64,000 nucleotides of DNA from Chloroflexota bacterium (GTDB lineage Bacteria > Chloroflexota > Anaerolineae > Anaerolineales > Villigracilaceae), in the NCBI GenBank assembly GCA_016213105.1, contig JACRBN010000016.1:310001-374000 (forward strand), read 5' to 3'. A program made the position numbers and the translations under genes. The notes beneath the pieces are model-generated. The model saw only the letters and a program-made list of their open reading frames with translations, did no database searches and was not told the DNA's origin. Below are positions 57,396 through 59,929 of this stretch, piece by piece. Positions within the stretch are counted from its first letter, which is position 1. Each line of letters starts with the position of its first letter.

Positions 57396-58274
57396 ATGTC
57401 AGCTCAATTGATCGACGGAAAAGCGATTGCCCAGAAAGTGCGCGAGGAAGTGGCGCTGGAGGTTGCCAAACGCACCGCGGAGGGCAAGCCCCAGCCCATG
57501 CTGGCCACCGTGCTGGTCGGCGACCGCCCCGACTCGGCGGCCTACGTGGCCTCGAAGGGTAAGGCCTGTCAGGAACTGGGCATGGGCTCCATCAGCGAGC
57601 ACCTGCCTGTCGACGCAACGCAGGAACAGGTCGAGGATCTGGTCAGGCGCCTGAACGCCGACCCGACGGTCAACGGCATCCTGGTGCAGCTGCCCATGCC
57701 TTCGCACATCGACGAGGAGCGCGTGCTCGCGCTGATCAACATCGAAAAGGACGTGGACGGCTTCTCCCCGCTCAACATCGGCCGCCTGGCCCAGAAGGGA
57801 CGCGAGCCGCTCTTCGTGCCCTGCACGCCGTATGGCTGCATCTACCTGCTCGAACAGGCGGGCGTCAAGATCGAAGGCGCCAATGCCGTGGTGCTGGGCC
57901 GCTCGAACATCGTGGGCATGCCCGCTGCCCTGTTGCTGATTGGCAAAAATGCCACCGTGACGGTCTGCCACTCACGCACGAAGGACATCGCCGCCGTCGT
58001 GCGCCAGGCCGACATCCTGATCGCGGCCATCGGCAAGACCGAGTTCGTGCACGGCGACTGGATCAAACCCGGCGCAGCGATCATCGATGTGGGCATCAAT
58101 TCCGTGCCCGACGCCACCAAGAAGAGCGGACACCGCCTGGTGGGCGACGTCAATTTCAATGAGGCGAAGGAAGTGGCAGGCTTCATCACCCCCGTCCCCG
58201 GCGGCGTCGGCCCGATGACCATCGCCATGTTGATGAAGAACACCCTGCGCGCGTCGCAAATTCAGCATCCATAA
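57396..58274 (+). CDS. folD: methylenetetrahydrofolate dehydrogenase / cyclohydrolase
   Basis: 292 residues. FolD converts methylene-THF to formyl-THF through methenyl-THF. Active-site Lys is in AYVASKGKACQELG, the substrate loop DVDGFSPLN and the Rossmann segment VVLGRSNIVGMPAALLL are intact, and the family signature PGGVGPMT is near the C terminus. AAGGAG lies before the ATG. TATAAT at about 57355 can serve as -10. The last 143 bp including the stop recur at 59718-59860, marking the boundary of an inserted segment. Confidence 0.96.
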   Translation: MSAQLIDGKAIAQKVREEVALEVAKRTAEGKPQPMLATVLVGDRPDSAAYVASKGKACQELGMGSISEHLPVDATQEQVEDLVRRLNADPTVNGILVQLPMPSHIDEERVLALINIEKDVDGFSPLNIGRLAQKGREPLFVPCTPYGCIYLLEQAGVKIEGANAVVLGRSNIVGMPAALLLIGKNATVTVCHSRTKDIAAVVRQADILIAAIGKTEFVHGDWIKPGAAIIDVGINSVPDATKKSGHRLVGDVNFNEAKEVAGFITPVPGGVGPMTIAMLMKNTLRASQIQHP

Positions 58275-58288
58275 TTTCTGGCGAAAAT

Positions 58289-58347
58289 GGAGTCCAAAGT
58301 CTCCAAGCTTTGGAAAGTGTACGCCAATGTCGGGAGACTTTGGACTC
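58289..58347. repeat. REP-type inverted repeat after folD
   Basis: GAGTCCAAAGTCTCC (58290-58304) and GGAGACTTTGGACTC (58333-58347) form a perfect 15-bp inverted repeat with the same GGAGTCC head as the transposase-associated REPs. Confidence 0.65.
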
Positions 58348-58414
58348 TGCTATTTAGCCACCTTCCTTCAAAACGCCATCAGTTTTATGCTACACTTGCC
58401 GCAGGAAATAGGCA

Positions 58415-59071
58415 ATGACTATTAAGAGTAGCGTTCAAATCGGTGATGTTATTCGTAATGCCGTTGTATTCAACGTCAAAAACTGGCCAGGTGGCACAAT
58501 GAATTCTGATTCTTTAATCCAGTCTGTCCAAGATTTTTTTACTGTTTTAGAAAAACGAAAGATTGACTATGTTCTTGTTGGGGGAATTGCCATCCTTCAT
58601 TATGTCGAAGGACGAAATACTCAGGATTTGGATTTACTCATGGCAGTTTCATCGCTGGAAAAGCTGCCTGAACTTAAAATTTCAAGTCGGGATATGTATT
58701 TTGTTCGCGCAGAATACAACGAATTACAAATTGATGTCCTACTTACACAAAATCCGCTTTTCAAAAAAGTCCACAGCGATTATTCAAAGGTTCAAAAATT
58801 TCTTGACCGCATTATCCCGCTGGCGACAGTGGAAGGTTTATTGTTATTAAAACTTTATGCTCTACCCTCTTTGTATCGGCAGGGTAACTTTGCCAGAGTT
58901 GGCATTTACGAAAATGACATTGCAACCCTGCTTCACTATTATCAACCTGACATACCTTCATTATTAAATGAGGTATCCAAATACGTGAATGAGAATGATT
59001 TTGCAGAAATCAAGGGAGTTGTCTCTGATATTCAAAATCGTATTAAGCGTTTCAAGGGTGGGTCTCGTTAA
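58415..59071 (+). CDS. nucleotidyltransferase-fold protein, antitoxin/toxin-like
   Basis: 218 residues, or 190 if the ATG at 58499 is used. The nucleotidyltransferase core is YVLVGGIAILHYVEGRNTQDLDLLM (G-G and D-x-D metal site, about residues 51-73). This resembles DUF6036 and AbiEii-type proteins that modify tRNA or proteins in toxin-antitoxin and phage-defence systems. No partner gene is next to it. G+C is well below the flanking genes and the gene lies inside the folD-bounded island, so transfer is likely. The start is uncertain because both ATGs have purine-rich upstream sequence. Confidence 0.72.
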   Translation: MTIKSSVQIGDVIRNAVVFNVKNWPGGTMNSDSLIQSVQDFFTVLEKRKIDYVLVGGIAILHYVEGRNTQDLDLLMAVSSLEKLPELKISSRDMYFVRAEYNELQIDVLLTQNPLFKKVHSDYSKVQKFLDRIIPLATVEGLLLLKLYALPSLYRQGNFARVGIYENDIATLLHYYQPDIPSLLNEVSKYVNENDFAEIKGVVSDIQNRIKRFKGGSR

Positions 59072-59084
59072 ATAGGCACGTGGA

Positions 59085-59220
59085 AACAAAGCGCGCATTG
59101 GACGCTGGGGTACGGCACGGCACCTACGGCAAGCATTTTGCGCATGCGTGGCTTCGAGTTTTCCCGGCTCTCAAGCAGAGTCCACGGCCGCCCACTATCC
59201 TCGAACGGAAACCGTTGGGC
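59085..59220 (+). repeat. attC-like repeat, copy 1
   Basis: Begins AACAAAGCGCGCA and ends CCGTTGGGC, where GTTGGGC fits the GTTRRRY integron core. The block CCTACGGCAAGCATTT...GCGTGGCTTCGAGTTTT and CTCTCAAGCAGA-TCCACG is shared with copy 2 at 59643. It sits just after the nucleotidyltransferase stop, where an attC site would be expected for a cassette. The inverse core is weak (GGAAAC). Confidence 0.5.
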
Positions 59221-59290
59221 GGATTAGCCCTGGGATCGATTTGTGTAAAATGTAGTCATTGTAACGATCATAAGAAACAAAGGAGAAAAA

Positions 59291-59608
59291 ATGCTGGAAA
59301 TCATTTTAGGTATTGCAGGAGTCTGGATCTTGTTTGTCGGCAAAGTGCCAAGTTGGATAATTGGAAAGAAAGATTTCGAAATCATTGGAATGAAAGCCCG
59401 GCTAATTGGTCTCATTCTGGCTATTCCATTTCCATTGTCCCTAGTGATAGGTGTGATTCTTGGTTTCTTATTCGGTCAAGATGGAGTAGGCTATGCTTTC
59501 TTTGTCGAGATAGCCATCTTCATTACTGTCTTAATTGTCGTTATGGTTCTAACACGCAATTTCCGTGTTCCTGTAGTGAAAAACGCCAATCAGCAAACGC
59601 TTGACTGA
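59291..59608 (+). CDS. small three-helix membrane protein
   Basis: 105 residues with three hydrophobic segments (about 3-18, 35-60 and 70-95), an amphipathic stretch GKKDFEIIGMKARLIG between the first two, and a polar tail. AAAGGAG lies 8 nt before the ATG. It is AT-rich like the previous gene and sits between the two attC-like repeats, so it may be a cassette gene. I do not recognise the family; no catalytic motif is visible. Confidence 0.7.
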   Translation: MLEIILGIAGVWILFVGKVPSWIIGKKDFEIIGMKARLIGLILAIPFPLSLVIGVILGFLFGQDGVGYAFFVEIAIFITVLIVVMVLTRNFRVPVVKNANQQTLD

Positions 59609-59637
59609 AAACTTATGGACATGGCTGCAAACACAGC

Positions 59638-59717
59638 AGCCGAACAAAGCGCGCACCTACGGCAAGCATTTCGCGCAGCGTGGCTTCGAGTTTTTCTTGC
59701 TCTCAAGCAGAATCCAC
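59638..59717 (+). repeat. attC-like repeat, copy 2, truncated
   Basis: GCCGAACAAAGCGCGCACC is followed by the CTACGGCAAGCATTT...GCGTGGCTTCGAGTTTT and CTCTCAAGCAGA-TCCACG blocks of copy 1. The 3' half, including the core GTTRRRY, is missing and is replaced by folD sequence. Confidence 0.5.
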
Positions 59718-59857
59718 GCCTGGTGGGCGACGTCCAATTCGCTGAAGCGAAGGAAGTGGCAGGCTACATCACCCCCGTCCCAGGTGGCGTCGTCCCGATG
59801 ACCATCGCCATGTTGATGAAGAACACGTTGCGCGCATCGCAGATTCAGCATCCGTAA
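59718..59857 (+). pseudogene. folD 3'-end fragment
   Basis: Gap-free match to 58135-58274, the last 46 codons of folD, with 14 differences over the 143-bp block including TAATTT after the stop. Conserved PGGVGPMT has become PGGVVPMT, showing loss of constraint. There is no start codon or upstream part of folD. The offset of exactly 1583 bp brackets the two AT-rich genes. Confidence 0.85.
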
Positions 59858-59929
59858 TTTGGACTCCAACACTGCAACAGTCCCGCGTCATGCGGGACTG
59901 ATTGAATCCAATCAGCGAGGAAAGCAAGA

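Follow-up and report, generated by a model that had tools for sequence, protein, structure and literature searches.

Integron cassettes between two copies of a folD gene end in an Anaerolineales genome

Introduction

Genomic islands that insert in the 3' ends of genes or tRNAs reconstitute the intact gene and leave the displaced 3' end behind. A comparable arrangement was observed in a 64,000-nucleotide stretch of a Chloroflexota bacterium (assembly GCA_016213105.1, contig JACRBN010000016.1, positions 310,001 to 374,000), hereafter the window, in which the folD gene is followed by a small island and by a second copy of the folD 3' end. In contrast to such genomic islands, the folD island has no integrase and no fixed short core, and the target gene is variable. 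We consider it probable that the island consists of two neighbouring integron cassettes outside any integron, which would have entered by homologous recombination on the folD side and by an illegitimate join on the other. The parts, integron cassettes and an illegitimate junction, are ordinary and their arrangement is informative: the island is an example from Anaerolineales of integron cassettes that have come to lie next to a housekeeping gene.

Several described systems come close. Clusters of attC sites lacking integron-integrases (CALIN; PMC9024848) and single attC loci, both terms of IntegronFinder, resemble the island in having open reading frames (ORFs) each followed by an attC site, low GC content and no adjoining integrase, whereas the last attC site of the island breaks off and runs into the duplicated end of a host gene, and both of its attC sites are degenerate. 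Insertion of cassettes outside integrons is known at attG sites (Loot et al. 2024, cited in PMC12901181) and at secondary sites (PMC10127599), and shares with the island an exact left cassette edge in a non-integron site; the right edge of the island, however, is not a clean attC junction, host DNA is duplicated, and a T takes the place of the G that normally flanks a cassette. Homology-facilitated illegitimate recombination (HFIR), proposed (PMC5361080) for type VI secretion system effector-immunity arrays of Vibrio cholerae, likewise combines a homologous anchor on one side with an illegitimate join on the other and moves old 3' material downstream, but the material displaced there is an ancestral immunity gene or effector end, while here it is the end of an unrelated housekeeping gene and the cargo is made of cassettes. 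Cassettes are also reported to pass between species by natural transformation, through homologous replacement in recipients that already possess an integron (PMC3410848).

Within the open-licence literature, searched by title, opening lines of the abstract and selected passages, we found no description of host-gene ends bracketing cassettes or HEPN-MNT pairs, which is a weak negative. Little is understood of how stray cassettes and toxin-antitoxin pairs move when they have no transposase. If the cargo is flanked by two alleles of the same host gene end, the scar can be dated and the route could be tested from genome sequences: such a scar would show on which side homologous recombination took place, whether a donor allele arrived with the cargo and how old the event is.

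The folD island and the empty site

The two copies of the folD end (58134-58277 and 59717-59860) align over 144 nt without gaps, at 90% identity with 14 mismatches and an offset of 1583; an earlier sequence-only reading of the window had given the block as 143 bp. A search of the own genome (a 5.39 Mb draft in 28 contigs) with this end returned just two matches at E<=0.001 (E 4e-70 and 4e-51), which excludes chance for the pair. The same reading had described the island as poorer in GC than its surroundings, and the GC content is indeed 0.427 over 58278-59716, compared with 0.636 (50001-58100) and 0.589 (59861-64000) on either side.

FolD matches were found in 57 of the 61 genomes searched (own included). 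In the genome collection, the closest named FolD relatives are from Anaerolineales metagenome-assembled genomes (MAGs), with up to 89% identity. In G001 (G, C and L labels denote genomes, contigs and loci), the sole other genome of the same genus among those searched, FolD is 95% identical to that of the window, there is one folD end with the cytochrome c gene directly after it, and no island is present; the order of the two genes is co-linear with both sides of the window. This clean folD-cytochrome junction with a single folD end, the very comparison that the sequence-only reading had proposed as support, marks the island as an insertion, judged from the two genomes.

The flank behind copy 2 (TAATTTGGACTCCA) is similar to the G001 flank (TAACTTGAAATCCA), so copy 2 adjoins the native flank. 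Copy 2 has also lost the glycine of the GGVGPMT motif (G to V), which is intact in all 64 FolD loci shown, some genomes being included twice. For these two reasons copy 2 is a remnant, and as a fragment without this glycine it is not functional. Copy 1 belongs to the intact folD. Compared with G001, copy 1 carries 3 private changes, all silent, and copy 2 carries 8, while 3 more sites differ in all three sequences.

Cassettes and attC sites

Two repeats shared between the folD copies (59119-59186 and 59652-59718), already noticed in the sequence-only reading, are real and are identified here, by their likeness to other sites in the genome, as attC sites, the first degenerate and the second cut off at the second folD end. 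A search with the repeat at 59076-59216 gave 26 own-genome matches, the query among them, many clustered about one cassette apart. Clean copies span GCCCAACAAAGCG to GTTGGGC, which by the consensus for integron attC sites are the R'' and R' boxes. A covariance model (R1), built from 18 genome sites with the window sites excluded, gave at least 64 matches in the own genome at E<=1 (a lower bound, with 150 candidates scored). The window sites rank 37th (attC1, 50.5 bits, E 5e-8 in the whole genome) and 40th (attC2, match at 59638-59747, 43.9 bits), below the best 35 matches at 84.8-153.3 bits, among which are the 18 training sites. A functional attC site would have complementary R''/R' and L''/L' boxes and a folded bottom strand; by reading, the R'' of attC1 is not complementary to GTTGGGC, and with these scores and no excess folding the window sites do not qualify as functional.

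The integron machinery lies elsewhere in the genome. Profile searches found no recombinase match among the ORFs of the island, in agreement with the sequence-only reading, and the island holds no intI and is thus not a complete integron; an integron integrase (TIGR02249, scoring 418.7 bits where the cut-off is 265) is encoded on contig C28, where it adjoins an array of 10 attC matches. TIGR02249 exceeded its curated cut-off in 84 of the 152 family genomes searched. In a conserved box of the C28 integrase (L020:228-1295, minus strand), HSFAT is followed by an unusual segment of 31 residues, at a position where the integrases of relatives read roughly HLLE, and the enzyme may be impaired. Within a cassette-like array elsewhere (C13:43900-55200, L011), a block measuring at most 215 bp is repeated some nine times, at roughly 82-96% identity.

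The 218-aa ORF, called a nucleotidyltransferase (NTase) in the sequence-only reading, is present as described, but its family match is weak: the Pfam nucleotidyltransferase family DUF6036 is matched at E 0.03, under the cut-off, and AbiEii at E 0.004 and 0.005. NCBIfam returned no match for either cargo protein, and a PDB sequence search with the cargo gave only matches at E 0.1-0.7, one of them an AbiEii-family toxin. NTase proteins up to 90% identical occur in other genera. The list of matches, in 60 of 152 genomes and with many weak ones, was reduced to 40 loci outside the own genome by dropping weak matches and the fragment G143:C133; the own genome has no second NTase match. DNA homology to NTase loci of other genomes begins exactly at 58354 (TTAGCC) in 5 of 11 (L153, L155, L157, L160 and L162), and in L155 the edge, G/TTAGCC, comes after a hairpin read as the host terminator. 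An R1 match lies directly downstream of the NTase in 6 of the 40 loci (L173, L176, L179, L182, L186, L209) and only upstream, within 400 bp, in 3 more (L177, L207, L211); the other 31 have no attC match so close. One of these loci, L176, sits in a cassette array. With an ORF followed by an attC site, a cassette edge shared with other genomes and a relative in an array, cassette 1 is classed, on comparative grounds, as an integron gene cassette. It begins 6 bases past the palindrome at 58288-58347, a REP-like repeat for which the own genome gives 31 matches, the query counted, with the two strands of one palindrome matched separately in some cases; the fold of 58280-58360 has a z of -6.2, and 0 of 200 shuffles were equally stable.

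A motif like TTTTTCGACAGTCTCGTTAGCC, in variants and partly in reverse complement, borders cassettes of several genomes: it occurs upstream of the NTase in L177, L181 and L186 and after attC in L014, L015 and L021, and is possibly an insertion-sequence end or an att variant.

The putative 105-aa membrane protein of cassette 2 has a 78% identical homologue in G001, at another place. From 59238 onwards the DNA has an 80% identical counterpart at L354 of that genome, where an attC match lies just upstream; the own genome contains no second match to this gene. The cassette lacks a complete 3' attC site, folD sequence from 59717 replacing the 3' arm, and for this reason it is called truncated.

The right junction

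In the alignment, attC2 tracks its relatives as far as CCACGCCTGG and then turns into folD; two displayed own-genome attC sites carry on CCACGCCTGG where the window switches to folD, and folD at the junction reads CACCGCCTGG. The 7-bp microhomology CGCCTGG is common to folD, at the start of copy 2, and to the attC sites of L011 and L013, while the attC site of L017 reads CGCCCGC at this position. HFIR would involve one homologous and one illegitimate junction with microhomology. The right junction has the 7-bp microhomology, the ancestral attC2 being reconstructed from its paralogues; a homologous crossover leaves no mark.

Table 1 Features of the folD island and its flanks, in window coordinates.
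Feature	Position	Strand	Evidence
folD (methylenetetrahydrofolate dehydrogenase/cyclohydrolase), intact	57396..58274	+	Pfam PF02882 E 1.8e-68, PF00763 E 1.9e-40
Copy 1 of the folD 3' end, within the intact gene	58134..58277	+	
Palindromic dispersed repeat, REP-like, separating folD from cassette 1	58288..58347	.	
Integron cassette 1, starting with TTAGCC and ending with the G of the attC R' box	58354..59214	+	
Nucleotidyltransferase-like (NTase) gene, 218 aa	58415..59071	+	
Degenerate attC site 1, in which by reading the R' box GTTGGGC survives and the R'' box does not	59080..59220	+	
Integron cassette 2, 3' end truncated; starts with TTGGGC after attC1	59215..59716	+	
Small putative membrane protein gene, 105 aa	59291..59608	+	
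attC site 2, 5' part only; folD copy in place of the 3' arm	59638..59716	+	
Copy 2, truncated and decayed folD 3' end	59717..59860	+	
folD downstream flank, like that of the same-genus genome G001	59861..59929	.	
Cytochrome c gene, directly after folD in the empty site	59930..60916	+	Pfam PF00034 E 5e-12; co-linear in L035

Similar arrangements at other loci

Brackets of the same kind were found around the NTase in other genomes. An automatic rule applied to the 40 NTase loci gave 8 rows, from which L179 (an attC end), L203 (different cargo), L210 and a second L175 row were dropped, leaving the NTase bracketed by a duplicated host 3' end in 4 of the 40 (L175, L183, L188, L194). These brackets measure 53, 44, 101 and 647 bp and involve four different host genes. 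The weakest is L188, whose copies are separated by 5.1 kb and by three further ORFs that reach 100 aa or more. The expectation of 0.19 such brackets (p 4e-5) uses the coverage of the own genome, is post hoc and mixes genomes. Two more cases were seen by eye only, L174 (a 34-bp repeat, a terminator by reading) and L192 (a 5' end), and across loci the duplicated host blocks range from 34 to 647 bp in different host genes.

In the own genome, 1.196 Mb was surveyed, the first pass consisting of 54 low-copy repeat pairs. The automatic rule gave 15 rows, 10 of which were set aside for the count of 3' ends: two rows of a tandem paralogue pair (C25:311260, 312001), three rows at C24:276601, and the 5'-end rows C24:275011, C25:27520, C25:87703 (two rows) and C25:149245. 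The five 3'-end brackets left belong to folD, PrmA, a 199-aa gene, an ABC transporter and an Eco57I-like enzyme, of which the 44-bp PrmA pair is possibly a repeat of promoter type; a case at C13:7117 (80%, 50 bp) failed the rule. Among the cargo of these five brackets are a nucleotidyltransferase paired with a HEPN protein (C25:238478), a DUF559 protein (C25:289022) and, at C24:262243, a protein of 216 aa whose STAND match is under the cut-off.

HEPN-MNT pairs are also bracketed in other genomes. At L203:9206-10258, an MNT and HepT toxin-antitoxin pair lies between copies of an ABC ATPase 3' end (135 bp, 96% identical), and by reading MNT-HepT pairs in L334, L346 and L349 are bracketed by host gene ends, the bracket being a gene junction in L346 and a 5' end in L349. 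No attC-model match at E<=0.1 was found near the bracketed HEPN-MNT pairs of L203, L334, L346, L349 and L243. In a wider HepT sample (28 of 41 genomes with matches; 30 loci, of which 29 passed the length filter, L340 being dropped), flanking direct repeats occurred at 8 of 29 loci, compared with 1 of 58 folD and glycosyltransferase control loci (Fisher p 5e-4). Recognised host gene ends account for three of the eight (L334, L346, L349), and the repeats at L328, L329, L335, L338 and L347 may be local repeats.

A control of 404,597 bp, composed of 46 folD loci (45 from other phyla and L122 from Anaerolineales) and 50 kb of E. coli K-12, contained 1 bracket (38 bp). In L117, from a MAG labelled Verrucomicrobia, 38 bp of a folD 3' end (1174-1211) are repeated at 97% about 700 bp downstream (1870-1907). 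None of the 34 Chloroflexota folD loci had a gene-end bracket. There were also no brackets in 0.4 Mb of G161, from another genus of the same family, which indicates that the scar is not dense throughout the family and that its density varies between genomes.

Taken across these comparisons, the same scar, consisting of an intact gene, a small accessory gene or HEPN-MNT pair, and a truncated copy of the gene end, recurs at some other loci of the genome and of the family. A tentative extension, which we regard as possible and by no means assured, is that small genes of a selfish or defence-like kind in Anaerolineales, namely integron cassettes, HEPN-MNT toxin-antitoxin pairs and lone nucleotidyltransferases, may spread by a shared mode without a recombinase of their own, carried on a donor allele of a neighbouring host gene with homologous recombination there and illegitimate joining on the far side, so that an intact host gene, the cargo and a truncated host-gene end are left as the scar. 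If this were true, the scar would reveal how modules without a recombinase move.

Origin of the island

Under the reading that we favour, the integron integrase would have acted in trans, either in a donor or in the present lineage, and set the cassettes behind folD, beside the hairpin repeat, at a non-attI (attG-like) site. The folD allele with its cassettes would then have entered by homologous recombination within folD and an illegitimate join at the opposite end, where a broken attC2 would have been joined to the resident folD end at CGCCTGG, the outcome being an intact folD, the cassettes and a leftover folD end. The island is probably now fixed, since its attC sites are broken. The sequence-only reading had seen either a small integrative unit or the scar of one; the scar of an insertion is retained, and the dedicated unit integrating in the folD 3' end is not.

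The closest competitor, which we regard as unlikely, is an in-place tandem duplication of the folD end, with the cassettes arriving between the copies before or after and no donor allele involved. The free copy of a simply duplicated gene end should drift evenly over codon positions. Pooled over 11 pairs, hand-picked from the bracket lists with the PrmA pair and a single 5' end among them, the differences are distributed 31/20/78 by codon position, and this third-position excess (78/129; p 3e-4 if a 45% mix is assumed, p 3e-10 for an expectation of one third) speaks against simple duplication. With the glycosyltransferase locus removed, 49 of 82 differences are at third positions. That locus, in G175, has the largest pair, a duplicated end of 647 bp (Pfam PF13692), with branches of 0.052 for the intact and 0.048 for the truncated copy. 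Polarised with the nearest orthologue, the truncated copy changed 4/4/13 by codon position (13/21 at third positions, p 0.007 against one third), which likewise disfavours duplication. From the similar branches and the third-position changes, the truncated copy probably functioned as an allele during most of its past. A joint arrival of cargo and gene end from a close relative would produce this pattern, which at this locus favours a donor allele over simple duplication. Tandem duplication also leaves unexplained the exact start of the copy inside an attC site.

Several observations weigh against the favoured reading. The two folD copies are nearest neighbours in the tree, with a support of only 0.08, and share QIQHP where G001 has QIQNP, as tandem duplication would predict. 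The private changes of copy 2 fall 3/2/3 by codon position and look neutral, which, together with the silent private changes of copy 1, is in line with duplication and fits in-place decay with no need for a donor allele. A donor with folD followed by cassettes was found in none of the 34 Chloroflexota folD loci and 40 NTase loci, and flanking repeats were present at 0 of 29 folD loci of relatives. The polarisation at G175 uses one outgroup, and with more outgroups most sites become ambiguous. At the cassette level, the base before the left edge of cassette 1 in the window is T, where G is usual and is seen in the sites of relatives only, and the folding of attC1 and attC2 does not beat that of shuffled sequences, which is expected of broken sites but unhelpful.

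A further explanation, to which we give a rather low probability, is a faulty integron reaction, in which a one-strand exchange between attC and a non-attI site is followed by a replicative resolution that goes wrong and re-copies host DNA; the cassette would then have an exact edge on one side and, on the other, a truncated edge with host sequence in duplicate. The window and L155/L174 are alike in just these respects, with an exact left edge after a host hairpin, a right attC that is truncated or missing, and repeated host sequence. Integron reactions do need replicative resolution, as stated in PMC4792948. Against this explanation, brackets also surround HEPN-MNT pairs with no attC-model match (L203, L334, L346, L349, L243), so that the scar can do without a mechanism specific to cassettes.

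A small integrative element dedicated to the folD 3' end, which it would target and restore, as the sequence-only reading proposed, is very improbable and largely refuted. The topology of intact gene, cargo and displaced 3' end is in its favour, and this is the most that survives of the proposed replacement end. In conflict with it, the NTase is an integron cassette found at many places in several genera, folD was absent (by tblastn) near all 40 NTase loci of other genomes, and the folD site is empty in G001. The unit has no recombinase, block lengths and host genes vary as listed above where a fixed att core would be constant, and the right edge, at the start of copy 2, halves an attC site. 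Assembly error is a negligible prospect: repeats invite mis-joins and the draft has 28 contigs, but the copies are 10% different, neither the NTase gene nor the membrane gene is matched a second time in the genome, and the contig that contains the island is 396 kb long and has folD on one side of it and the cytochrome gene on the other, in the same-genus order.

No tRNA that could serve as an insertion target was found in the 64-kb window, and an Rfam scan of 57000-61500 gave only matches below gathering scores. About 10 kb from the island, at 47868-48344 on the minus strand, the window contains a tyrosine recombinase match that is weak but above the cut-off (38.7 bits).

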